Positions 367 through 59,393 of a DNA stretch of 64,000 nucleotides are shown piece by piece (the stretch's first letter is position 1; every line of letters starts with the position of its first letter). The notes beneath the pieces were generated by a model. It worked only from the letters and a program-made list of their open reading frames with translations, did not search any database and was not told where the DNA came from. The position numbers and the translations under genes were made by a program. The stretch comes from Streptomyces sp. Go-475 (GTDB lineage Bacteria; Actinomycetota; Actinomycetes; Streptomycetales; Streptomycetaceae), in assembly GCF_003330845.1 (NCBI RefSeq), contig NZ_CP026121.1, positions 3,453,501 to 3,517,500 on the forward strand, read 5' to 3'.

Positions 367-1581
367 TCACACCACGCGTTCCCCGCGCCGCCACACGCCG
401 CTGACCAGCGGGACGCCCGGCCGGTAGGCGAGGTGGACGTGGCTCGGCGCGTCGAGGAGCGCCAGGTCGGCGTAGGCGCCCGGGGTGAGGCGGCCGATGT
501 CGGTGCGCCTGAGGGCAGCCGCGCCGCCCGCCGTGGCCGACCAGACGGCCTCGTCCGGGGTCATCCCCATGTCCCGTACGGCGAGCGCGACGCAGAAGGG
601 GACGGACGAGGTGAAGGACGAGCCCGGGTTGCAGTCGGTGGACAGGGCGACGGTGGCGCCCGCGTCGAGCAGGCGGCGGGCGTCCGGCCACTCCGCGCGG
701 GTGGAGAACTCGGCGCCGGGCAGCAAGGTGGCGACGGTGTCGCTGTTCGCGAGCGCGTCCACGTCCTCGTCCGTCAGGTGGGTGCAGTGGTCGGCGCTCG
801 CGGCGTCGAGTTCGACGGCGAGCCGTACGCCCGGGCCGTACGACAACTGGTTGGCGTGGATGCGGGGGTGCAGCCCCTTGGCCTTGCCCGCGGTGAGGAT
901 CGCCCGGGCCTGGTCGCCGTCGAAGGCGCCCTGCTCGCAGAAGACGTCGATCCAACGCGCGTAGGGGGCGCAGGCGTCGAGCATCTCGCCGGTGACGAGG
1001 GCGACGTACGACGCCGGGTCCTCGGCGTGGTCCGGCGAGACGATGTGCGCGCCGAGGTAGGTGACCTCGTCGGTGTGGGCGGCGGCGATGCGCAGCGCCC
1101 GGGACTCGTCCTCGACGGTCAGGCCGTAGCCGGACTTCGTCTCCATGGTGGTGGTGCCCTGGCGGAGGGCCTCGCGGAGGTAACGGGTGAGGTTGGCCTC
1201 GAGTTCCTCGTCGCTCGCCGCCCGGGTGGCCGCGACCGTCGTGCGGATGCCGCCCGCGCTGTAGGGCCGCCCCGACATCCGGGCGTTGAACTCCTGCGTC
1301 CGGTCGCCCGCGAAGACGAGGTGGGAGTGGGAGTCGACGAAGCCGGGGATGACCGCCCGGCCGCCGGCGTCGACCCGATTGTCAGTGGCGGGTGCTTTGC
1401 TGTGATCACCGGTCCACGCGATGCGGTCGCCTTCGATGACGACGGCCGCGTCCTGGACCAGTCCGAGGGGGGAACCGTCACCGAGGGAGGGGTCGTTGGT
1501 GACCAGGGCGGCGATGTTGGTGATGAGCGTGCTTGCGGTGCTCGCGGAGTGGGCGGGGCTGACGGTCGTCGCGTTGCTCAT
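367..1581 (-). CDS. hutI: imidazolonepropionase HutI
   Basis: 404 aa. It hydrolyses 4-imidazolone-5-propionate to N-formimino-L-glutamate, the third step of histidine breakdown, in the cytoplasm. The protein is a metal-dependent amidohydrolase: an HxH metal motif follows the first beta segment ([10 protein letters not shown]), ETKSGYG sits mid-protein, then SADHCTHL and the late STDCNPGSS motif that carries the metal/catalytic Asp. Length is normal for the family. I chose the ATG at 1581, which has a weak AAGGA about 6 nt upstream. An alternative ATG at 1662 overlaps the hutF stop as ATGA and would add 27 residues rich in Pro and Ala, but has no visible ribosome-binding site. Last recognisable gene of the leftward hut operon, so probably co-transcribed from hutU. 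Confidence 0.93.
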
Positions 1582-1658
1582 GGCGTCCTTGGTGGCCTGG
1601 TCGGCGGTGGGGTCGGGTCCGGGGGCGGGGGCCGGCCGCGCGGGCGGGCGGCCCGGGG

Positions 1659-2999
1659 TCATCCGCGCAGGGCTGCGACGGCGTCCGCGAGGGCGCGCGG
1701 CACATCGGGCACGAGGGTGTGGACCCCGTCCCGTACGACGTGCCGGCCTGCCACGACCGTATGCGACACGTCTGCTGCCGACGCGGCGAATACGGCCGTC
1801 TCGGCCCCGAGCCGCGGAAGCGGCCCTGCCGTCCTGACCGAGTCGAGGGCGATCGTCGTGAAGTCGGCGAGCGCGCCGGGCTCGAGGCGGCCCGCGCCGT
1901 CCCAGCCGAGGGCGGCGTGGCCGTCGGCCGAGGCCGCCCGCAGCAGGGCCGCCGCCGTCCAGTGACCTCGGGTGCGGGTGCGCAGCCGCTCGTTCAGCTC
2001 CATCGCCCGCGCCTCTTCCAGCAGGTCGATCACGGCGTGGCTGTCGGATCCGAGACAGAGCGGGGAGCCTTCGTTCTGCAGGGCGACCGCGGGCCCGATG
2101 CCGTCGGCCAGGTCCCGTTCGGTCGTCGGGCACACGCAGGTGCCGGTGCCGCTGGAGCCGATGAGGGAGATGTCCTCGGCAGTGAGGTGGGTGTTGTGGA
2201 CGCCGGTGGTGCGCGGCCCGAGCACACCGTGCAGGGCGAGGAGCTGGGTCGGGGTGCAGCCGTGGGCTTCCCGGCAGGCGTCGTTCTCGGCGGTCTGCTC
2301 GGACAGGTGCACATGGAGCGGGGCCCGCCGCTCCTCGGCCCAGCGCGCCACGGTCGCCAGTTGCTCGGCGGGCACGGCCCGCACGGAGTGGATCGCCGCT
2401 CCGATCCGTGCGTGATCCCGTTCCTTGAGAACTGAACAGCGTTCTGCCCAGGCGTCCGCCGTGCCGTCGGAGAAGCGGAGCTGGTGGGCGGTGGGGGGCT
2501 GTCCGAAGCCGGAGGAGAGGTAGGCGGTGTCGAGGAGGGTGATGCGGACCCCGGCTTCGGCGGCGGCCGCGACGAGTGCCTCCCCCATCGCGTTGGGGTC
2601 GGCGTAGGGGGCGCCGCCGGGGGCGTGGTGGACGTAGTGGAACTCGCCGACCGCCGTGATGCCGGCCAGGGCCATCTCGGCGTACACCGCGCGGGCGAGG
2701 GCGTGGTAGCTGTCCGGGGTGAGCCGGGCGGCGACGGAGTACATGACCTCGCGCCAGGTCCAGAACGTGCCGGAGCCGACCTGGGCCGTGCCGCGCAGCG
2801 CGCGGTGGAAGGCGTGGCTGTGGGCGTTGGCCAGGCCGGGCAGGGTGAGTCCGCGGAGGATCTCGGCGCCGGGGGGCGGCGCGGCGACCTCGGTCCGGAC
2901 GGCGGTGATGCGGCCGTCCCGCACGTCGAGGGCGACGCCCGGTTCGACGCGCGTGTCGAGCCAGGCGTGCTCCAGCCAGTACGTCTGCGTCACCTGCAC
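1659..2999 (-). CDS. hutF: formimidoylglutamate deiminase HutF
   Basis: 446 aa. It deaminates N-formimino-L-glutamate to N-formyl-L-glutamate and ammonia, the branch of the histidine pathway that then needs a deformylase. An amidohydrolase fold is visible: an N-terminal beta domain, the metal motif in [10 protein letters not shown], the HYVHH segment near residue 140, HVHLSEQ near the middle, and LGSDSHA as the late Asp-containing motif. The GTG at 2999 is preceded by GGAGGG with about 7 nt spacing, so I chose it over the in-frame GTG at 2993. It overlaps the 3' end of the upstream M20 gene by 10 bp, indicating translational coupling. Its presence, with no hutG in view, shows which histidine branch the organism uses. 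Confidence 0.92.
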
Positions 3000-4207
3000 G
3001 CCAGTCCCTCCAGTACGTCGGCGAGTGCGAGCACCCCGGCCACGCAGTCGTCCTCGGTCGCGGACTCGGCCGGCGAGTGGGAGACACCCGTGGGGTTGCG
3101 CACGAACAGCATGGCGGTCGGGATGCTCCCGGACAGGATCCCGGCGTCGTGTCCGGCGCCGGTGCCGAGGACGGGGACCGTGAGGCCGGCGTCCGTGCCG
3201 AGGATGCGGGCGAGTTCGTCGCGCAGGGCGTGGTCGAACTCGACGACGGGGGTGAACGACTCGCGGACGACGGCGAGATCGACCCCGTGGGCGGCGGCGT
3301 ACTCCCCGGCCGCCTTCTCCACGCCGGCGACGACGGCGTCCAGGCTGTCCTGGTCGGCGGCGCGCGAGTCGAGCCAGCCGCGCACCAGGGAGGGGATGGC
3401 GTTGACGCCGTTCGGCTCGACGGCGATCTTGCCGAAGGTGGCGACGGCCCCGGCGAGTTCGGCCTCGCGGCGGGCGGCGAGGACGGTCTCGGCGTAGGGC
3501 AGCATGGGGTCGCGCCGGTCGGCGAGCCGGGTGGTGCCGGCGTGGTTGGCCTCGCCCCGGAAGTCGAACCGCCAGCGTCCGTGCGGCCAGATGGCGCTCG
3601 CGATGCCGACCCGGTCGCCGGACAGGTCCAGGGCCCGGCCCTGCTCGACGTGCAGTTCGACGAAGGCGCCGATGCGGGCGAGCCGTTCCGGGTCGGGCCC
3701 GATGGCGTCCGGGTCGTAGCCGGCGGCCTCCATGGCCCGGGGCAGGGTGGTGCCGTCCCCGTCGGTCAGCCGGTGGGCGTCGGCGACGGTGAGCTGCCCG
3801 GCCGTGAGCCGGGACCCGACGCAGGCGAGCCCGAACCGGGCACCCTCCTCGTCGCCGAAGTTCACGATGCCGAGGGGGCGGGTGAACCGCGCGTCCCGGT
3901 CGCGCAGTTCGTCCAGCGCGGCGAAGGCGGAGACCACGCCGAGGGGCCCGTCGAAGGCACCGCCGTCGGGCACGGAGTCGAGGTGCGACCCGGTGACGAC
4001 GGCGTCGCCGCGGGCGGGGTCCCCGAGCCAGGCCCACTGGTTGCCGTTGCGGTCGGTCTCATAGGTCAGCCCGCGCGCTTCGGCCTGCTCCTGGAACCAG
4101 GCCCGGCAGTCCGCGTCGGCGCCGGTCCAGGCGAAGCGGCGGTAGCCGCCGGAGGCGGAGCTGCGGCCGATCGGCAGCAGCTCCGCCCACATGCTGTGGA
4201 AGGTCAC
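2990..4207 (-). CDS. M20-family amidohydrolase (allantoate amidohydrolase / N-carbamoylase type)
   Basis: 405 aa, a dinuclear-metal peptidase-like amidohydrolase. Metal ligands expected of the family are visible in order: GSHLDSV (His), FDGPLGV (Asp), [10 protein letters not shown] (Glu pair), LHVEQG (His) and GAGHDA (His late in the protein); NHAGTTR marks the dimerisation/lid region. Such proteins are usually labelled allantoate amidohydrolase, but this one is locked inside the hut operon between hutU and hutF, overlapping hutU by 4 bp (GTGA). Family members cleave N-carbamoyl and related N-acyl groups from amino acids, so an obvious inference is that it removes the formyl group from N-formylglutamate, replacing HutG. 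Start: GTG at 4207; an internal ATG at 4192 is possible. Substrate assignment is inference. Confidence 0.88.
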
Positions 4208-20041: not shown

Positions 20042-20087
20042 CGGGCACGCCGCGAACTTCTCAATGGACCACACAGGGATCGGAAGG

Positions 20088-20171
20088 TGCCCGGAGCCGG
20101 ACTCGAACCGGCACGCCCGCGAAGGGGCAGCGAGGTTTAAGCTCGCCGTGTCTGCATTCCACCATCCGGGC
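20088..20171 (-). tRNA. bldA: tRNA-Leu(UAA), bldA
   Basis: 84 nt on the minus strand, CCA not encoded. Acceptor arm GCCCGGA pairs with TCCGGGC (discriminator A). The D arm contains GGTGGAATGCAGACAC. The anticodon stem CGAGC/ACCTCG region encloses loop CTTAAAC with anticodon TAA. A long variable arm, typical of class II leucine tRNAs, follows, then the T arm with GGTTCGAGTCC. In Streptomyces the single tRNA-Leu reading UUA is BldA, required for aerial growth and many antibiotics because TTA codons are rare and concentrated in developmental and secondary-metabolic genes. It lies upstream of pobA on the same strand and divergent from the ABC exporter. Confidence 0.96.
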
Positions 20172-20588
20172 AGGCCATGGGCTCCGCATCGAGGTTCCGA
20201 GACTATCGGGACGGGTCCCCCGAACAGCGGAAGGGCGGACCGATGTTGTCTTATTTTATTGACGTCTGAGGGTGCATCAGCACACGGAACGCGCCATCCG
20301 CACTTGCCAATAGCCTTACGCGCGGCCGTCGGCCGTGTATGCGGAATGACGGAATTTCACCGCCCGAACGAGGGCACTCCACCTGTTCTCGACACGACGC
20401 GCACGCGGCCTCCGACAACCGGGGCCCCTCAGGGGTGTTCGTCATCCCCAGGTATGACACTGCCCGGCTGGGTCAGCCCGCAGTCGGCCCCCGGAACCGG
20501 AACAACGGGTGACTACACGGCGGTGTGGGACCCGGACGATGGAACACGTCCTTCCCCAACACCGTCGTCCCGTCAGGAGTGCCATCCC
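20172..20588. other. intergenic region between bldA and ABC exporter
   Basis: 417 bp with no gene. The bldA side contains an unusually AT-rich patch (TTATTTTATT, about 20245-20254) and a possible leftward -10 GATAGT (20207-20202), 31 bp before the mature tRNA; I could not find a convincing -35 at the right distance. The exporter side ends in the GGAAC...CGTC element described next. The central part holds only GC-rich partial palindromes. Confidence 0.5.
20541..20566 (+). promoter_or_regulatory. possible ECF-sigma promoter of ABC exporter
   Basis: GGAAC (20541-20545), 17 bp, CGTC (20563-20566), followed by an A/G-rich ribosome-binding site CAGGAG at 20575. The pattern resembles promoters of sigma-E-like envelope-stress factors in Streptomyces. 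Motif match by eye only. Confidence 0.4.
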
Positions 20589-21359
20589 GTGACCACCGCA
20601 TCCCTCGCCGACCGGGCCACCACCGTGGCCGCGCGCGCCACGGATCTGTCGAAGATCTACGGACAGGGTGAGACCCAGGTGGTCGCCCTGGACCGGGTCT
20701 CCGTCGACTTCCGGCAGGCCGAGTTCACCGCGATCATGGGCCCGTCCGGCTCCGGCAAGTCGACCCTGATGCACTGCGTGGCCGGTCTCGACACCTTCTC
20801 CTCCGGGTCCGTGCGCATCGGCGAGACCGAGCTGGGCTCCCTGAAGGACAAGCAGCTGACCAAGCTGCGCCGGGACAAGATCGGCTTCATCTTCCAGGCC
20901 TTCAACCTGCTGCCGACCCTGACGGCCCTGGAGAACATCACCCTTCCGATGGACATCGCCGGCCGCAAGCCGGACAAGCAGTGGCTGGACTCCGTCATCG
21001 GCATGGTCGGCCTGGCCGACCGGCTGGGCCACCGGCCCTCCCAGCTCTCCGGCGGCCAGCAGCAGCGCGTCGCCGTGGCCCGGGCGCTGGCCTCCCGGCC
21101 GGAGATCATCTTCGGCGACGAGCCCACCGGAAACCTCGACTCGCGCTCGGGCGCCGAGGTGCTGGGCTTCCTGCGCAACTCCGTGCGGGAGCTGGGCCAG
21201 ACGGTGGTGATGGTGACCCACGACCCGGTGGCCGCCGCCTACGCCGACCGGGTGATCTTCCTGGCGGACGGACGGATCGTCGACGAGATGTACCGCCCGA
21301 CGGCCGAGTCGGTCCTGGACCGCATGAAGGAGTTCGACGCCAAGGGCCGCACCAGCTGA
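20589..21359 (+). CDS. ABC transporter ATP-binding protein (MacB/LolD type)
   Basis: 256 aa. Walker A GPSGSGKST near residue 52, Q-loop IFQAFNLLPTL, ABC signature LSGGQQQR near 158, Walker B EIIFGDEPTGNLDS and H-loop VMVTHDP are all intact. The LLPTLTALENITLPM segment and C-terminal RIVDEMYRPTAESVLDRMKEF are typical of MacB-like ATPases that work with FtsX-family permeases rather than in import. The GTG at 20589 follows CAGGAG by about 10 nt. It is followed after 38 bp by its permease. Very similar to the ATPase at 53333-54121, so a paralogous pair exists in this window. Substrate unknown; possibly envelope lipids, lipoproteins or peptides. Confidence 0.95.
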   Translation: MTTASLADRATTVAARATDLSKIYGQGETQVVALDRVSVDFRQAEFTAIMGPSGSGKSTLMHCVAGLDTFSSGSVRIGETELGSLKDKQLTKLRRDKIGFIFQAFNLLPTLTALENITLPMDIAGRKPDKQWLDSVIGMVGLADRLGHRPSQLSGGQQQRVAVARALASRPEIIFGDEPTGNLDSRSGAEVLGFLRNSVRELGQTVVMVTHDPVAAAYADRVIFLADGRIVDEMYRPTAESVLDRMKEFDAKGRTS

Positions 21360-21397
21360 TCCCCCGTCAGGACCGACAGGACTGAGAAGAAGAACCC

Positions 21398-23926
21398 ATG
21401 TTCCGTACCGCCTTGCGCAACGTGCTCGCGCACAAGGCCCGGCTCCTGATGACCGTGCTCGCCGTGATGCTCGGCGTGGCCTTCGTGTCGGGGACCCTGG
21501 TCTTCACCAACACCATCTCCGACGCGTTCCAGAAGAGTTCCGCCAAGGGCTTCGACCAGGTCGACGTCGCCATGACCGCGGAGTACCAGGACGCCGAGGG
21601 CGACCGGGTCGGCAAACTCCACGAACTGAACCAGGCCGTGCTCGACAAGAGCGAGCGGGTGCCCGGTGCCGCGTCCGCCATCGGGGTCGTGCAGAACTTC
21701 ACCGCCATCGCCGACAAGGACGGCAAGCTGATCGGCGCGGGCTTCCAGTCGCAGGGCGGCAACTACTGGGGCACCAAGGACCCCCGCTACCCCCTGGTCA
21801 GCGGGCACGCCCCCAAGGGCCGAGGCGAGATCCTCATCGACTCCGCGACGGCGAAGCGCGCCGGCTACAAGGTCGGTGACACCGTGCGCATGTCGGTCGA
21901 CGGACCGGTCCTGACGCCGAAGATCACCGGCATCTTCACCACCGACGACGGCAACGTCGCGGCCGGCGGCAGCCTCACCCTGTTCGACACCGCGACCGCC
22001 CAGAAGCTGCTCGGCAAGCCGGGCGTCTACGACCAGATCGTCGTCAAGGCGAAGCCCGGCGTCTCGCAGAGCGCGCTGAAGGCGGAGCTGGACAAGGCGC
22101 TGCCGAAGGGGACCGTCTCGACCACCACCGGCAAGCAACTCGCCGACGACCAGGCCAGGTCGATCGCCGAGTCGATGAGCGGCATGCAGACGGCCCTGCT
22201 GGTCTTCGCCGGCATCGCCCTGTTCGTCGGCACGTTCATCATCGCCAACACCTTCACCATGCTGGTCGCCCAGCGCACCAGGGAGCTGGCGCTGATGCGG
22301 GCGGTCGGCGCCTCGCGCCGGCAGGTGACGCGGTCGGTGCTCATCGAGGCGTTCGTGGTCGGCGCCGTCGCCGCCGTGGCCGGTCTGCTCGCGGGCATCG
22401 GCATCGGGGCCGGACTGCGCTCCCTGATGGGCACGTTCGACGCGACCGTCCCGGACGGGCCGCTGGTGATCAAGCCCGCGACGATCGTCGCCGCGCTCGC
22501 GGTCGGCATCCTGGTGACCATGCTCGCGGCGTGGCTGCCGGGCCGCCGGGCCGCGAAGATCCCGCCGGTGGCCGCCATGAACAGCGTGCACGCCAAGGCC
22601 ACGACCAAGTCGCTGGTGCTGCGCAACACGCTGGGCGCGCTGGTCTCGGCCGCGGGCGTCGCGGTGGTCCTGGTCGCCACGACCATGGACGGCTCGGACG
22701 GCCAGGTGCCGATGGGCCTCGGCGCGGTGCTGCTGATCATCGGCGTGTTCATCCTGACGCCGCTGCTGTCCCGCCCGCTGATCGCCGCCGCGGCGCCGGT
22801 GCTGCGCGCCTTCGGGGTGTCCGGCAAGCTGGCCCGGCAGAACTCGGTGCGCAACCCGCGCCGTACGGCCGCCACCGCCTCCGCGCTGATGATCGGCCTG
22901 ACCCTGATCACCGGCATGACGGTGATGGCGGGCAGCCTGCAGCAGGCCATCGAGAAGATGGCGTCGGCGTCCATCAAGGCCGACTACGTGGTGTCCATGG
23001 CGAACGGCAACCCGCTGTCGCCGGACGTCGAGAAGAAGCTGAAGCAGGCCGGTGACGTCACCGCCACCAGCCCGATGCTCAACGCCGAGTCCCGGATCGA
23101 CGGGCGGAGCGAGTACCTGACCGGTGTCAACGGCGCCGCGCTCGGCGACCTGATCGGCCCGAAGGTCGACGACGGCTCCCTCAAGGTCGGCGGCACGGAC
23201 GTCGTCGTGGACAGCGAGACCGCCAAGTCCTACGGCTGGAAGGCCGGTTCCGGCTTCACCGTCTCCTTCGAGGACGGCAAGAAGGAGCGGCTGACGGTCG
23301 CCGGGACCTACGAGAGCAACGACTTCCTGCGCGGCATCCTGCTCGACGAGAAGACCCTCGCCCCGCACGTGGCGGACCCGTACAACATGAAGGTCATGGT
23401 GAAGACCTCCGACGGCACCTCCGGCGCGGTGCAGGACGAGCTGGAGAAGGCCCTCGGCACCAACCCGGCCATCAAGGTGCAGTCCAAGGACGACATCTCC
23501 AACGAGATCGCGCAGATGTTCACCCTGATGCTGAACATGGTCTACGGCCTGCTCGCCATGGCGGTGATCGTGGCGGTCCTCGGCGTCATCAACACCCTGG
23601 CCATGTCGGTCTTCGAACGCTCCCAGGAGATCGGCATGCTCCGCGCGATCGGCCTGGACCGCAAGGGCATCAAGCGGATGGTCCGCCTGGAGTCCCTGGT
23701 GATCTCGCTGTTCGGCGCGGTGCTGGGCATCGGTCTCGGCGTGTTCTTCGGCTGGGCGGCCGGGGAACTGCTGGCCTCCAAGATGGCGACGTACGAGCTG
23801 GTCCTGCCCTGGGCGCGGATCGGCGTCTTCCTTCTGCTGGCCGCGACGGTGGGCGTCCTCGCGGCGCTGTGGCCGGCCCGGCGCGCGGCGCGGCTGAACA
23901 TGCTGGAGGCGATCAAGGCCGAGTAG
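21398..23926 (+). CDS. FtsX/MacB-type ABC transporter permease
   Basis: 842 aa. One hydrophobic helix near residues 15-40, a long extracytoplasmic domain (about 45-255), three helices at about 262-400 containing the FtsX core with RTRELALMRAVGASRRQV, a further helix pair about 410-460, a second extracytoplasmic domain (about 500-690), and a final three-helix FtsX core with RSQEIGMLRAIGLDRKGIKRMVRLESLVI. This duplicated FtsX layout (two cores, 8-10 helices) is typical of actinobacterial exporters that move substrates mechanically across the outer leaflet. ATG at 21398 with a weak AGAAGAA ribosome-binding site. Operon with the ATPase; a strong terminator follows. Homologous to the permease at 50757-53336. 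Confidence 0.93.
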   Translation: MFRTALRNVLAHKARLLMTVLAVMLGVAFVSGTLVFTNTISDAFQKSSAKGFDQVDVAMTAEYQDAEGDRVGKLHELNQAVLDKSERVPGAASAIGVVQNFTAIADKDGKLIGAGFQSQGGNYWGTKDPRYPLVSGHAPKGRGEILIDSATAKRAGYKVGDTVRMSVDGPVLTPKITGIFTTDDGNVAAGGSLTLFDTATAQKLLGKPGVYDQIVVKAKPGVSQSALKAELDKALPKGTVSTTTGKQLADDQARSIAESMSGMQTALLVFAGIALFVGTFIIANTFTMLVAQRTRELALMRAVGASRRQVTRSVLIEAFVVGAVAAVAGLLAGIGIGAGLRSLMGTFDATVPDGPLVIKPATIVAALAVGILVTMLAAWLPGRRAAKIPPVAAMNSVHAKATTKSLVLRNTLGALVSAAGVAVVLVATTMDGSDGQVPMGLGAVLLIIGVFILTPLLSRPLIAAAAPVLRAFGVSGKLARQNSVRNPRRTAATASALMIGLTLITGMTVMAGSLQQAIEKMASASIKADYVVSMANGNPLSPDVEKKLKQAGDVTATSPMLNAESRIDGRSEYLTGVNGAALGDLIGPKVDDGSLKVGGTDVVVDSETAKSYGWKAGSGFTVSFEDGKKERLTVAGTYESNDFLRGILLDEKTLAPHVADPYNMKVMVKTSDGTSGAVQDELEKALGTNPAIKVQSKDDISNEIAQMFTLMLNMVYGLLAMAVIVAVLGVINTLAMSVFERSQEIGMLRAIGLDRKGIKRMVRLESLVISLFGAVLGIGLGVFFGWAAGELLASKMATYELVLPWARIGVFLLLAATVGVLAALWPARRAARLNMLEAIKAE

Positions 23927-31028: not shown

Positions 31029-31925
<897 letters not shown>

Positions 31926-50756: not shown

Positions 50757-53336
50757 CTACTCGGTCGCGATCGCGTTCAGGACGTTCATCCGGCCCGCCC
50801 GGAACGCCGGGATCAGTGCCGCGAACAGGCCCACGAACGCCGAGCCGATGAAGACGCCGATGATGGTCGGCCAGGGGATGTCGAGGATCATCAGGCCCTC
50901 CAGTTCCAGCAGCTGCTGTGCGGTGGCGCCCCAGCCCATGCCCAGTCCGAGGCCCAGCAGGGCGCCGAAGAGGGCGATGACGACGGACTCCATGCGGATC
51001 ATGCGGCGCAGCTGGCGGCGGGAGAGGCCGATCGCCCGCATCAGGCCGATCTCCCTGGTGCGCTCCACCACGGACAGGGCCAGGGTGTTCACCACGCCCA
51101 GGATGGCGACGATGATCGCCAGGGCCAGCAGGCCGTAGATCATGTTGAGCAGCTGGCCGATCTGGTCCTTCAGGGCCTCCTTGTAGTCGGTCTGGTCGCG
51201 CACGGTGTACTGCGGGTAGTCGTGCAGTGCCGACTTCAGGGACTTGTAGGCGGCGTCCTGCTGCCCCTCCTTGGCGCTGGCGAAGACCAGGGAGTCCAGC
51301 GGCATCTTGTCGGCCGGGACGTACTTGGCCATCGTGGCGATGGAGGTGTACATCGCGCCCGCGTCGATCACGACGTCACTGCTGGTGATCGCCCGGACCG
51401 TCAGGTCGGCGGCGGAGCCGTCCTTGAAGGCCACCTTGATCTTCGAGCCGAGGCTGATGCCGTGGTCCTTGGCGAACTTCTCGTGGACGGACATCGAGTC
51501 GGGCTTGTAGGCGTCGGGCAGCTTGCCGGCGACGGTCTCGGTGCGCAGGTCGGTCGCGTACGACGGGTCGGCCGCCGTGATCGCCGTGTCCTTGAGGGTC
51601 TCGCCGTCGGGGGTGGTGAAGTCGGCCTGGGTCCACTTGTACTCGGTGACCCGCTCCAGTTCCGGCGTCGACTTCATGGCCTTGACGGCCTGCGGGGTGA
51701 TCAGCTGGCCACTGTCGGACTGGACGATGAAGTCCGTGCCGACGGTCTTGTCGAGCTGGTCGGTGGCGGAGGCCACCATGGAGGAGCCGACCACGGACAG
51801 GCACGCCACCAGGGCGAGGCCGATCATCAGCGCGGCGCCCGTGGCGCCGGTGCGGCGCGGGTTGCGCAGGGCGTTGCGCTCGGCCATGCGCCCCACGGGG
51901 CCGAACATCCGCAGCAGGACCGCGCCGAGAACGCGGACCACTCCGCCGGCGAGCAGCGGGCCGATCACGACGAAGCCGATCAGCGACAGCACCACGCCGA
52001 TGCCGAGCCACAGCGAGCCGTCGGTGGCCTTGTCGGCCGCCGCCGCCAGGTACAGGGCGAAGACGCCGCCTGCGGTGAGGACGGTGCCGAGGATGCCGCG
52101 GATCCAGCCGGCCTTGGCGTCCGCCGGGGCTCCCGCGTCGCGCAGGGCGGCCATCGGGGAGATCTTGCCGGCGCGCCGGGCGGGCAGGTAGGCGGCGAGG
52201 ACGGTGACGACCACGCCGAGGACGAGGCCGACCACCGGGGTCGTCCAGGCCACCGTCAGGTCGTCGGTGGACAGTTCCATGCCCATCTGGCCCATGAGCT
52301 TCATCAGGCCGACGGCGAGGCCGACGCCCGCGCCCACGCCGAGCACCGAGCCGACGAGGCCGAGCAGCAGCGCCTCGGCCAGCACCGAGCGGTTGACCTG
52401 CTTGCGGGAGGAGCCGATGGCCCGCATCAGGCCGATCTCGCGAGTGCGCTGGGCGACCAGCATGGAGAACGTGTTGATGATCAGGAAGATGCCGACGAGG
52501 AAGGCGATCCCGGCGAAGCCGAGCATCGCGTACTTCATGACGTTCATGAAGCCCTCGACGTCCTTCTGGTTGGCGTCCGCGGTCTCCTTGGCGGTTTTGA
52601 CCTGGTAGCCGCCGCCGAGTTCGGCGGTGACGTTCTTCTTCAGCTGCGCGTCGCTGACGCCGGCGGCCGCGGTGACGTTGACGTTGGTGTAGACGCCGGT
52701 CTCGCCGACCAGGGCCTGCTGGGCGGTCTTCGTGTCGAGGTAGAAGATCGCGGCGCCGGGGTTGGTGACGGTGAAGTCGGCGATGCCGGAGATCTTCGCC
52801 TGGTGCGTGCCGACCGCGCTGATCACCGCGATCTCGTCGCCGAGCTTCAGGCCGTGCTTGTCGGCGGTGTCGGCGTCGACCATGATCTGGTCGCCGCCCT
52901 TGGGTGCCGCACCGGAGGTGATCTTCATGGTGCGGGCGTCGGTGGCGTTCCAGCTGCCGACGACGGTCGGGCCGCCGCTGGTGGGCGAGAGGTTGTCCTT
53001 GTCGGCGTCGACGACGGTGACCGACGTGGAGAAGACCGTGCCCTCGGCGGACTTCACGCCGTCGGCCCCCCGCACCTCGCCGAGCACGGAGGCCGGCATC
53101 ACGGGCGGCTTGCCGTTGTCGGCGGTCGTCTCACCGCTGTCGGAGGCGCCCTTGGCGCTCACCGTCACGTCCGAGGAGGTGGCCGCGAAGAGCTTGTCGA
53201 ACGTGGTGGACATGGTGTCCGTGAAGACGAGCGTCCCGCAGACGAAGGCCACCGACAGCAGGACGGCGATCGCGGAGAGCGCCATGCGGCCCTTGTGCGC
53301 GAGGAAGTTGCGCATCGAGGTCTTCATGACGGTCAT
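50757..53336 (-). CDS. FtsX/MacB-type ABC transporter permease (second copy)
   Basis: 859 aa. Same two-core FtsX architecture as the protein at 21398: one N-terminal helix, a large extracytoplasmic domain (about 40-260), FtsX core with RTREIGLMRAIGSSRKQVNRSVLAEALLLG, a middle helix pair, a second extracytoplasmic domain (about 530-720), and a final core with RTREIGLMRAIGLSRRQLRRMIRMESVVIALFG. It ends NVLNAIATE, where its paralogue ends NMLEAIKAE. ATG 53336 overlaps the ATPase stop by 4 bp (ATGA), so the two are coupled. Substrate unknown. Confidence 0.93.
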   Translation of the reverse strand: MTVMKTSMRNFLAHKGRMALSAIAVLLSVAFVCGTLVFTDTMSTTFDKLFAATSSDVTVSAKGASDSGETTADNGKPPVMPASVLGEVRGADGVKSAEGTVFSTSVTVVDADKDNLSPTSGGPTVVGSWNATDARTMKITSGAAPKGGDQIMVDADTADKHGLKLGDEIAVISAVGTHQAKISGIADFTVTNPGAAIFYLDTKTAQQALVGETGVYTNVNVTAAAGVSDAQLKKNVTAELGGGYQVKTAKETADANQKDVEGFMNVMKYAMLGFAGIAFLVGIFLIINTFSMLVAQRTREIGLMRAIGSSRKQVNRSVLAEALLLGLVGSVLGVGAGVGLAVGLMKLMGQMGMELSTDDLTVAWTTPVVGLVLGVVVTVLAAYLPARRAGKISPMAALRDAGAPADAKAGWIRGILGTVLTAGGVFALYLAAAADKATDGSLWLGIGVVLSLIGFVVIGPLLAGGVVRVLGAVLLRMFGPVGRMAERNALRNPRRTGATGAALMIGLALVACLSVVGSSMVASATDQLDKTVGTDFIVQSDSGQLITPQAVKAMKSTPELERVTEYKWTQADFTTPDGETLKDTAITAADPSYATDLRTETVAGKLPDAYKPDSMSVHEKFAKDHGISLGSKIKVAFKDGSAADLTVRAITSSDVVIDAGAMYTSIATMAKYVPADKMPLDSLVFASAKEGQQDAAYKSLKSALHDYPQYTVRDQTDYKEALKDQIGQLLNMIYGLLALAIIVAILGVVNTLALSVVERTREIGLMRAIGLSRRQLRRMIRMESVVIALFGALLGLGLGMGWGATAQQLLELEGLMILDIPWPTIIGVFIGSAFVGLFAALIPAFRAGRMNVLNAIATE

Positions 53337-54121
53337 GACGTGCGCCCCCGGGCGTCGAAGTCCTTCATGCGGTCCAGGACGGCCTCGGCGGTCGGCTTGT
53401 ACATCTCGTCGACGATGCGGCCGTCGGCGAGGTACAGCACGCGGTCCGCGTACGAGGCGGCCACCGGGTCGTGCGTGACCATGACGATGGTCTGGCCCAG
53501 TTCGTCCACGGACCGGCGCAGGAAGCCGAGGACCTCGGCACCCGCGCGCGAGTCGAGGTTTCCGGTCGGCTCGTCACCGAAGATGATCTCGGGCCGGGCC
53601 GCGAGCGCCCGCGCCACGGCGACGCGCTGCTGCTGGCCGCCGGAGAGCTGGGTGGGCCGGTGCTTGAGCCGGTCGGCGAGGCCTACGGTCTCCACGACCC
53701 GGGCCAGCCACTGCTTGTCCGGCTTGCGGCCCGCGATGTCCATGGGCAGCGTGATGTTCTCTATGGCGTTGAGCGTCGGCAGCAGGTTGAACGCCTGGAA
53801 GATGAACCCGATGCGGTCCCGGCGCAGCTGCGTGAGCTTCTTGTCCTTCAGGCCGGTGATCTCGGTCTCGTCGAGGTAGATCTGCCCGCCGGTGACGGTG
53901 TCGAGCCCGGCGAGGCAGTGCATGAGCGTGGACTTGCCGGAACCCGAGGGGCCCATGATCGCGGTGAACTGGCCGCGTGCGATGTCCACGTCGACGTGAT
54001 CGAGGGCGACGACCCGGGTCTCTCCGGACCCGTACGCCTTCACGACCTGCCGCGCCCGCGCGGCAACGGCCGTACGCCCTCCAGTACCCCCGTGCCTGGG
54101 AATGGTCACAGCCGAAGTCAC
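53333..54121 (-). CDS. ABC transporter ATP-binding protein (MacB/LolD type, second copy)
   Basis: 262 aa. Walker A GPSGSGKST, IFQAFNLLPTLNAIENITLPMDIAGRKPD, signature LSGGQQQR, Walker B EIIFGDEPTGNLDS and VMVTHDP all intact. Very similar along its whole length to the ATPase at 20589, including the C-terminal RIVDEMYKPTAEAVLDRMKDFDARGRTS. The GTG at 54121 has GGAG about 8 nt upstream. First gene of the ATPase-permease operon. The duplicated exporter is probably an old duplication or paralogous family rather than recent, since the permeases differ clearly. Confidence 0.95.
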   Translation of the reverse strand: MTSAVTIPRHGGTGGRTAVAARARQVVKAYGSGETRVVALDHVDVDIARGQFTAIMGPSGSGKSTLMHCLAGLDTVTGGQIYLDETEITGLKDKKLTQLRRDRIGFIFQAFNLLPTLNAIENITLPMDIAGRKPDKQWLARVVETVGLADRLKHRPTQLSGGQQQRVAVARALAARPEIIFGDEPTGNLDSRAGAEVLGFLRRSVDELGQTIVMVTHDPVAASYADRVLYLADGRIVDEMYKPTAEAVLDRMKDFDARGRTS

Positions 54122-56696: not shown

Positions 56697-59201
56697 ATGG
56701 ACTTCAACAGGCGCACGGCGATGGCGGCGGGACTCGGAGCGGTGGCGGCGGCGCACGGCACGCCCGCGGCCCGGGCGGCCACGCCCACGGCGGTGACGGT
56801 GACGGTGCAGGGTGAGGCCGCGGTACGGACGAACATCCCGGTGGTCAGGGACCGCCGGGCGTCCGGCGGGCGGTACCTGAGGTTACGGACGGCCGGGAAA
56901 CCCCCGGCGGGGACCGGCTGGTACGCGACGTACGTCGTGCGCGTACCGCGGCCCGGCGTGTACGCGCTGACCGCCATCGCGACCGCGCCGATGGAGACGC
57001 CGCATACCGAGGCCGTCGCCTCCTACCCGCAACTGTCCGTGGACGACGGCCCGTTCGCGGAGATCGCGCGCTCGCAACCGCACTGGTACGAGTCGCGGCC
57101 CGCCTGGGGCGACTTGTCCGTCCTGGACCTGGGCGTGGTCGAACTGGACGCCGGGGCCCATACGTTCACGTTCCGCGTCGCCGAACCGGCCGTCCTCGAC
57201 GACACGACGGCGTACGCCCTGTCCCTGGACCGCTTCACCCTGCGCCACCTGGCCGGGCACCCGGCCCTGTGCGAACTGTCGGTGCCCCGGCACCGCGTGG
57301 GCGAACCGGCCCGGCTGCGACTCACCCTCGACGGGCGCGCCACACGCGCGTACCGCGTGCGGTACGTCGTCAGCGACCACCGCGGAAGGCAGGCAGCGGC
57401 CGGCCGGGCCACCATCGCCGCGGGGGCCACGAGTGCGACGGTCACGCTGCCCGCCCTGCCCCCGGGGCACTACCGGGTGAGCGCGGACGGCGTGACGGGC
57501 CGGTTCGCCCGCCTGCCCGCGCGCCCCGCCGTCACCGGCCCCACCAGCCGCTTCGGCGTCAACGTCTGGGCGTCCTCCCTCGTCCCGCCGTCCCGGCTGG
57601 CGGACTTCGCCGCGGCCGTGCGGGACATGGGAGCCGGCTGGGTACGCGACGGCCAGTCCTGGCCCGCGGCCGAACCGGCCCCCGGCGCGTACGACACCTC
57701 CCACCACGACCGCCGCACCCGCACCCTGCGCGCCCACGGCCTGGCCGTCCTCGACGTGCTCTCCCCCGCCCCCGAGTGGTCCATGACCGACGCCTCGCTG
57801 CCGCTCCCGGCGGACCTCAGGCACGCCTACCGCTACGCCCGGCACCTGGCGGCGGCCGCCCCCGAGGCACTCCAGCTCTCGAACGAACCGGACGTCGACA
57901 CCACCCGCAGCACCGGCGACGCCCACGCCGCGTTCGTGAAGGCCGCCGCCCTCGGAATCAAGGACGCCGCGCCCGAGCCCTGCCTCGTCGTCCTGCCGGG
58001 CATCGCGCAGACCGGCCCCTTCCAGGACCTGATGCTCGCCAACGACGTCGTGCGGTACGCGGACGTCTGGGCCTTCCACGGCTACCCGGACCCGGCCGAG
58101 CCCGGCGAGCCGCGCTTCCCGGGCATCGCGGAGGAGCAGCACGAACTGGCCCACCGGCACCAGGCACACGTACCACTGTGGATGACGGAGTGCGGCGCGT
58201 TCCAGAAGTCCCGGCCCGGGCAGGACCTGACGCCGGAGCAGGAGATCGTGCAGGCGCGGTACGTGGTGCGGTCCATGGTGGAGGGGCTGGCGGCCGGCAA
58301 CGACCGGCAGTTCTGGTTCGCGGGCCCGCCGCTGCACGACGACGGCGTCTACTTCGGGCTGCTGGACAGGGATTTCCGCCCGCTGCCCGCCTACAGCGCC
58401 TTCGCGGCCCTCACCTCGCTGCTCGGCGCGGCACACTTCACCGGCTTCGCGCCCGGCCTGCCGGACGGCGCCCGGGGGTTCGTCTTCGACAGCGGACGTG
58501 GAGAGCGGGTCATGGTGCTGTGGGCGGAGCGGCCGGTGCGCGTGGACGTGGCGGGGGTTGCGTACGACCTGATGGGCCGCCGTCTGCGGGCGGGGCCGGT
58601 GACCGTCTCACGCGACCCTCTGTACGTCGTCTCCCGCTCGGCCCCCGCAACCGGCCCGGCCCCTGTGGCCTCGGCGACCCCGGTGATCCCGGCGAGCCCC
58701 GTGGCCTCGGCGACCCCTGTGGCCGTGAAGACCCCCGTGACCCCCGCGGTCTCCGCGTCCTCCATGGTCTCCGCGTCTTCCGTACGAGCCGCCGCTCGCC
58801 CCCGGGCCCGCCTCTCCCCCGCCGAGCACATCGTCCTCGCCCAGCGCTTCCCCGCCCGCAACGCCGCCCCCGGCAAGGACGACGGGGACGCGCCGCCGCC
58901 GTACGGCTACCGCCTCGGCCGCCGTACGCGCATGGTCGTCGACGTCTACAACTTCGGTGCCACCGCATTCAACGTGACACTCGCGGCCCGGCCGGTGGGC
59001 GACGGGTGGTCCGTGCGGGCGGAGTCCGGGCGGCGGGAGGAACGCATACGCGTTCCCGCCGGAGGCCGGGTCGGCGTCGGCTTCACGGTTCGCGCCGGCA
59101 GCTCGGTGCGGCGTCGGACCGACCGGCGGCTGGCGTTCGGCGCGACGCTCGACGATCACAGCGAAGTACCGGCGTCCGTGGCGCTGATCCACCTCAAGTA
59201 G
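56697..59201 (+). CDS. large secreted glycoside-hydrolase-like protein, contains a TTA codon
   Basis: 834 aa. The N-terminus has a twin-arginine-like signal (FNRRTAMAAGLGAVAAA). Residues about 30-200 look like beta-sandwich (YATYVVRVPRPGVYALTAIA, HTFTFRVAEP), 280-600 like a TIM-barrel glycosidase of clan A (GH39/GH5-like): FGVNVWAS, WVRDGQSWP, QLSNEPDVD with Glu397 as probable acid/base and LWMTECGAF with Glu498 as probable nucleophile. A Pro/Ala/Ser/Thr/Val linker (about 645-695) and a C-terminal beta domain follow. Codon 63 is TTA (56883-56885), the only in-frame TTA I found in the window, so its expression should depend on bldA. ATG 56697 was chosen because the signal starts there; the GTG at 56652 is an alternative. 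Exact family uncertain. Confidence 0.85.
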   Translation: MDFNRRTAMAAGLGAVAAAHGTPAARAATPTAVTVTVQGEAAVRTNIPVVRDRRASGGRYLRLRTAGKPPAGTGWYATYVVRVPRPGVYALTAIATAPMETPHTEAVASYPQLSVDDGPFAEIARSQPHWYESRPAWGDLSVLDLGVVELDAGAHTFTFRVAEPAVLDDTTAYALSLDRFTLRHLAGHPALCELSVPRHRVGEPARLRLTLDGRATRAYRVRYVVSDHRGRQAAAGRATIAAGATSATVTLPALPPGHYRVSADGVTGRFARLPARPAVTGPTSRFGVNVWASSLVPPSRLADFAAAVRDMGAGWVRDGQSWPAAEPAPGAYDTSHHDRRTRTLRAHGLAVLDVLSPAPEWSMTDASLPLPADLRHAYRYARHLAAAAPEALQLSNEPDVDTTRSTGDAHAAFVKAAALGIKDAAPEPCLVVLPGIAQTGPFQDLMLANDVVRYADVWAFHGYPDPAEPGEPRFPGIAEEQHELAHRHQAHVPLWMTECGAFQKSRPGQDLTPEQEIVQARYVVRSMVEGLAAGNDRQFWFAGPPLHDDGVYFGLLDRDFRPLPAYSAFAALTSLLGAAHFTGFAPGLPDGARGFVFDSGRGERVMVLWAERPVRVDVAGVAYDLMGRRLRAGPVTVSRDPLYVVSRSAPATGPAPVASATPVIPASPVASATPVAVKTPVTPAVSASSMVSASSVRAAARPRARLSPAEHIVLAQRFPARNAAPGKDDGDAPPPYGYRLGRRTRMVVDVYNFGATAFNVTLAARPVGDGWSVRAESGRREERIRVPAGGRVGVGFTVRAGSSVRRRTDRRLAFGATLDDHSEVPASVALIHLK

Positions 59202-59393
59202 CCCACCGGGGTGTCCACAAGCCCGAGTTAACGCCGGTAACACCAGAGGTCGGAAAGGTAAGCGCATACCGACCGATCAGTTTGGCGAAACCCTCGCGCG
59301 GCACCGGTACTCCGAAGTAACGTGCGTGGCCGCTCACCCCCCAACCTCCCTGCGGTCCGCCGCACCGGATAAACCCTCGCAAGGAGCACCGGG

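Follow-up and report, generated by a model that had tools for sequence, protein, structure and literature searches.

The window analysed here, a stretch of 64,000 nucleotides (G000:C1:3453501-3517500, in a chromosome that forms a single contig of 8,570,609 bases), contains an ordinary bldA gene and one potential target of its tRNA, a gene in which a UUA at codon 63 probably gates a predicted secreted GH39 enzyme until the tRNA accumulates. The combination of bldA and a TTA-containing gene is in itself ordinary. Control by bldA is textbook biology and the pair alone teaches little; the survey of orthologues was of more use, and it yields a modest new lead, namely that lone early TTAs recur in this GH39 family. 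The features involved are collected in Table 1.

Table 1 Position and basis of the features discussed
Feature	Position	Strand	Basis
bldA, class II tRNA-Leu, anticodon UAA	20088..20171	minus	ARAGORN, Rfam RF00005
Putative AdpA box TGGCGCGTTC	20287..20296	minus	exact TGGCSNGWWY match, about 116 bases upstream of bldA
Predicted secreted glycoside hydrolase (GH39, PslG-like) of 834 aa, the one gene of the window with TTA	56697..59201	plus	
Predicted signal peptide with twin arginine, residues 1-28	56697..56780	plus	conservation of R5 and R6, low pLDDT over 1-28
TTA, codon 63	56883..56885	plus	direct reading; TTA also in L002, L003 and fragment L020
Predicted catalytic (beta/alpha)8 barrel, residues about 283-577	57543..58427	plus	strands and helices of the model; inside the range aligned to PslG and 5jvk
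E397, predicted acid/base, NEP motif, after strand 391-394	57885..57887	plus	invariant in alignment A3; aligns with NEP of PslG
E498, predicted nucleophile, WMTECG, end of strand 494-498	58188..58190	plus	invariant in alignment A3; aligns with WSTEWG of PslG

The bldA gene and its regulatory loop

The sequence-only reading had taken the tRNA at 20088-20171 for bldA with a UAA anticodon, and both the identity and the position hold. ARAGORN called a tRNA-Leu with anticodon taa at 20086-20171 and Rfam model RF00005 matched 20088-20171 with 50.9 bits, in both cases on the minus strand, which that reading had not given; an Rfam run over the whole window at the gathering threshold did not list the tRNA at 20088-20171. 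The name of this tRNA-Leu(UAA) gene is taken from the literature (PMC2000904, PMC4255298, PMC11836424), where bldA is described as the only UUA tRNA, is activated by AdpA and has a product that rises late. A single tRNA gene also reads UUA in six Streptomyces genomes (PMC4932002), and in S. coelicolor only 2 of 147 bldA-influenced genes contain TTA themselves (PMC2000904), a point that counts against gating of the hydrolase. A DNA similarity search, which a divergent second gene could escape, found a single similar copy in the own chromosome, and a best match of 92-99% identity was present in 18 of the 18 other genomes searched.

The AdpA consensus is given as TGGCSNGWWY (PMC4021200), and the window contains three exact matches, at 20287, 32546 and 33633. 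The first is the putative box upstream of bldA. Of 18 other bldA loci, 12 have the predicted site without mismatch at the same place and the remaining six miss it by one base each, and the same test on background windows of those 18 loci gave 0 of 878. The exact-consensus scan of the window found no AdpA box upstream of the hydrolase gene, and a box for that gene was rejected, these three being the only exact matches. Nineteen places in the own genome match PF01965. One of them, adpA-like (L081, at G000:C1:3104527), has a DJ-1_PfpI domain and HTH_18, an AraC-type helix-turn-helix, with a TTA between them whose position was derived by hand; this order is the known layout of adpA (PMC4255298). 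Two more of the 19 also have an in-frame TTA, in open frames unchecked as genes. The regulatory loop around bldA looks standard: like the genes of S. coelicolor and S. griseus, the window's bldA is a class II tRNA-Leu(UAA) with a single similar copy, a putative AdpA box upstream and a TTA in an adpA-like gene of the same genome, and in this comparison of features no difference was seen.

Some other elements of the window were noted in passing. Two separate pairs of an ABC ATPase and a MacB/FtsX-type permease lie at 20589-23926 (plus strand) and 50757-54043 (minus strand), one of them adjoining bldA. A c-di-AMP riboswitch (RF00379, 67.3 bits) at 31717-31883 on the minus strand stands directly upstream of a gene for a transglycosylase-like protein with LysM (31029-31712, minus strand), an arrangement known from genes for resuscitation-promoting factors.

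The TTA gene of the window

Two programmed gene callings agreed on the TTA census. Both the 53 genes called by codon usage and the 48 of a second calling, in which TTA was scored neutral, contain one and the same in-frame TTA, that of the hydrolase gene, as had been found by eye in the sequence-only reading. Over both strands 51 TTA triplets were counted versus 146 expected from shuffles, so that TTA is strongly avoided in the window. An even sample of 1.2 Mb from this chromosome gave 920 called genes, 10 of them with TTA. This rate leads one to expect 0.58 TTA genes per 53, with a probability of 0.44 of at least one, and one such gene in the window is therefore ordinary. Streptomyces genomes are reported to average 177 TTA genes (51 to 505), 92% of them with one TTA, and most of these codons are poorly conserved (PMC10327506). 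A 5' bias of TTA has been reported for streptomycetes (PMC4255298); in our small own-genome sample it was not significant (10 TTA at median relative position 0.48 versus 34 CTA at 0.63, p 0.35). Six of the 51 triplets lie in the short intergenic stretch 59228-59372, 3' of the hydrolase gene, a local AT-richer spot and perhaps the promoter of the DUF485/symporter pair.

The ATG at 56697 opens MDFNRRTAM, and R5 and R6 were identical in 17 of 17 aligned orthologues; the row starts in this alignment were set by hand, so that M1 adds no separate support. In the leader, GTCTGCTG, which stands a few bases before the ATG, was identical in all nine aligned sequences (one from the L020 fragment). Since both the twin arginine and this leader are conserved, the TTA lies inside real coding sequence, and a true start 3' of codon 63, named in the sequence-only reading as a possible refutation, was rejected. 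A twin-arginine motif is a Tat signal, and from its presence we infer that the hydrolase would be exported by the twin-arginine (Tat) route.

Neither Pfam (no family at E 0.001, nothing relevant at E 5) nor NCBIfam (no family at E 1) assigned the hydrolase protein. A profile of 70 homologues matched PslG, a GH39 glycosidase of Pseudomonas aeruginosa (4zn2, 5bx9, 9g17), with an E value of 4.5e-10, and the AlphaFold model from the same 70 rows had a mean pLDDT of 88.1; an earlier model from 17 rows (54.4) was set aside. Behind the signal peptide the model shows beta domains and then the barrel, followed by a small beta domain; a low-complexity linker at about 650-700 leads to a last beta domain at the C terminus. 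The nearest solved structures by Z are both GH39, 5jvk at 34.8 (rmsd 2.8 over 424 residues) and PslG at 34.2 (rmsd 3.4 over 356 residues), and the next, Xyn30D, falls well below them at 27.7; when hits are ranked by Foldseek E value, 5jvk leads and PslG takes ninth place, several GH2 enzymes with a poor rmsd coming in between. In clan GH-A strands 4 and 7 each carry one of the two catalytic Glu at their end. E397 and E498, which fit this rule on the model, do not vary over the 70 rows of alignment A3 and align with the NEP and STEWG motifs of PslG. On the model, the hydrolase is a clan GH-A barrel with its nearest kin in GH39 (PslG type) and a predicted glycosidase activity. Identity is 23% with PslG and 18% with 5jvk, a GH39 enzyme of Bacteroides cellulosilyticus. 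Unlike PslG, the window enzyme has extra N-terminal beta domains and a C-terminal one, and its neighbours also differ (transporter, acetyltransferase, DUF485, symporter). Titles and abstract openings of the literature on bldA/TTA glycoside hydrolases and on PslG-type or Asl1-like hydrolases in Streptomyces included none about this gene.

TTA and CTA codons in the orthologues

Codons were read in 31 distinct orthologues, namely the window gene and 21 others, and then nine more from later genus draws. Left out were L020 (S. violaceus, interrupted by a run of N, with TTA at codon 63), the fragments L022 and L024, in the latter of which a TTA falls in a wrong-frame extension, and, as duplicates or copies at the same place, L026, L099, L100, L102, L105, L107 and L111. 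Among those retained L011, L013, L014 and L017 lack a complete 3' end, the start of L104 is unsure, and L017 has a frame break, for which its first open piece alone was counted. In this last record (Streptomyces sp. uw30, 1515-3510) the gene appears as two tblastn pieces meeting at residue 472-474, either a break or a sequencing error.

TTA was found in 11 of the 31 orthologues, always exactly one, and is absent from the other 20, so the enzyme does not need it. Numbered by window residues, the sites are 63 (window, iakyrus, tuirus), 60 (L109, L110), 159 (lanatus, uw30, L108) and the singletons 43 (GESEQ-35), 99 (GESEQ-4) and 316 (albicerus). Five of these six sites fall within the first 160 codons, and being different they require at least six origins. 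Codon 63 itself is TTA in three of the orthologues, the remaining 28 having CTG or CTC, and is thus not conserved as a codon; a TTA at the same codon across species is seen in adpA and is not needed for all bldA-dependent genes. In the tree, rows with a common site group together, with two TTA-free rows inside the site-159 group, so that TTA at this site must have been lost again or gained twice. The family resembles the frequent-TTA genes of Streptomyces (PMC4255298, including the cellulose genes celB and celS2) in being accessory, secreted and polysaccharide-active, with TTA in a sizeable minority of members, and differs from them in being absent from the rows of Table 2 seen in that paper and in a TTA position that varies by lineage.

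As the rare A-ending leucine codon that bldA does not read, CTA offers a comparison. The family total of 25,038 codons contains 18 CTA at 15 sites and 11 TTA at the six sites. From background genes of similar GC3 (29 CTA and 7 TTA in 166,153 codons) 4.4 CTA and 1.05 TTA sites would be predicted, so that both are in excess (P 0.00005 and 0.0008). An enrichment of TTA relative to CTA was not borne out over several comparisons (Fisher p 0.26-0.72). By position the two codons separate: the TTA sites are early (median residue 81) and the CTA sites late (median 484, range 209-653; Mann-Whitney p 0.00044), in a test that is post hoc and rests on six TTA sites. TTA is also earlier than all other leucine codons together (p 0.003). 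Of the 15 CTA sites none falls within residues 1-208 of the family, where five of the six TTA sites lie.

We lean, with some reserve, to the view that the TTA at codon 63 is an accident of relaxed codon use in a weakly expressed gene, in which both A-ending leucine codons are tolerated. TTA would then come and go and any dependence on bldA be incidental and unselected, which is compatible with gating of the enzyme, since it concerns the origin of the codon. The excess of CTA agrees with it, as the ratio of TTA to CTA sites (6:15) is close to that of the background (7:29, Fisher p 0.52). So does the fact that leucine is missing from most other rows at five of the six sites with TTA, from which it follows that those TTAs arose together with an amino-acid change. 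The window gene's other A/T-ending codons are kept at 37-50% in its closest relatives, so that keeping one TTA is unremarkable, and an unusually good retention of the codon-63 TTA in the close clade was not shown. Relaxed codon use can explain the number of TTAs, less easily their placing well 5' of the CTA sites. Against it also stand the genes flanking the hydrolase in the fetched loci, where TTA occurs in 0 of 112 at similar GC3 and in 1 of 153 at any GC3 (every called gene overlapping a tblastn match of the hydrolase being excluded), and the sister rows GESEQ-35 and GESEQ-4, which carry their TTA at different codons. These points leave some room for a less likely reading, in which the dependence on bldA is kept by selection on the gene and not on the site: different Streptomyces lineages may have repeatedly gained exactly one early TTA, at different codons, so that the codon moves and the switch stays.

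Linkage to bldA and decoding of codon 63

The hydrolase gene is patchy in distribution. With a DNA query, which will miss distant copies, hits came from 16 of 392 genomes in one draw from the genus, 8 of 150 in an earlier one and 2 of 394 in a draw from the family; a protein query gave 3 of 61 relatives (own genome included in each count). Among the 107 homologous proteins listed, many without an organism name, two were sourced outside Streptomyces (Spirillospora and Actinomadura). Plasmid records gave no homologue of the hydrolase.

In the window 36.5 kb and 30 called genes separate bldA from the hydrolase gene. The pair is linked at 32-40 kb and in the same relative orientation in nine of the 11 records tested (S. 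tuirus, iakyrus, lincolnensis, lanatus, cf386, GESEQ-35, GESEQ-4, S.PB5 and BV286); in the other two, albicerus and AC550, the genes are on different contigs. Such constancy might speak for a function of the closeness itself, for example in co-expression, which we consider extremely improbable. A tRNA acts in trans, 30 called genes intervene in the window, a distant homologue in G007 lies unlinked at 3.6 Mb from bldA, and four of the nine linked copies (lincolnensis, cf386, S.PB5 and BV286) have no TTA. As the tRNA is diffusible and the same distance is kept where the gene has no TTA, the shared window is no link, and the idea that it is meaningful was rejected, also in view of the 0.58 TTA genes expected by chance. 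The closeness is inherited gene order, an old synteny. Another homologue, L104 (G146:C1:102230-103123), is about 102 kb from the contig end in a single-contig genome, a place unlike the bldA-linked one of the nine records.

The most likely mechanism is the standard one, in which the UUA at codon 63, far ahead of the catalytic domain, slows or stops translation as long as the bldA tRNA is scarce. The tRNA, the AdpA box, the TTA of the adpA-like gene, the in-frame TTA of the hydrolase gene behind its well-supported start and the GH39 fold are observed in this genome; the late accumulation of the tRNA, the activation by AdpA and the stalling are inferred from literature on other species. By analogy, AdpA, whose own mRNA contains UUA, would activate bldA, and the tRNA would then read UUA in adpA and other late genes. 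Before it accumulates ribosomes would stall after residue 62 and produce no catalytic domain; afterwards the GH39 enzyme would be made and exported, probably cutting an exopolysaccharide, the substrate being a guess. The early UUA and the bldA tRNA put forward in the sequence-only reading are genuine, and its wording that the gene is expressed only when the tRNA is mature stands as a prediction that the published leakiness of UUA decoding weakens. An adpA-gusA fusion was 15-fold weaker, not silent, in an S. ghanaensis bldA mutant (PMC3814723), and near-cognate tRNAs have been proposed to misread UUA (PMC4932002). With such tRNAs reading codon 63 well enough the gene would in practice be independent of bldA, which we regard as rather unlikely: a moeE5-gusA fusion with two UUA codons was inactive in the same mutant background (PMC3814723), and L63 is nearly invariant in alignment A3, for which Phe or Val at this position may be harmful. 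There is also a claim that the base after the TTA decides dependence on bldA, which we did not meet in the parts of the bldA literature covered.

There is published debate on whether bldA truly serves as a regulatory device (PMC3814723), and a family with recurrent single early TTAs, in which CTA serves as a built-in control, would allow a direct test of this question. If selection does act on the gene, the family would show cleanly how a rare-codon switch can be conserved at the level of the gene without a fixed site. Should the enzyme cut exopolysaccharide, late and under bldA gating, it would also connect development with the remodelling of the extracellular matrix.
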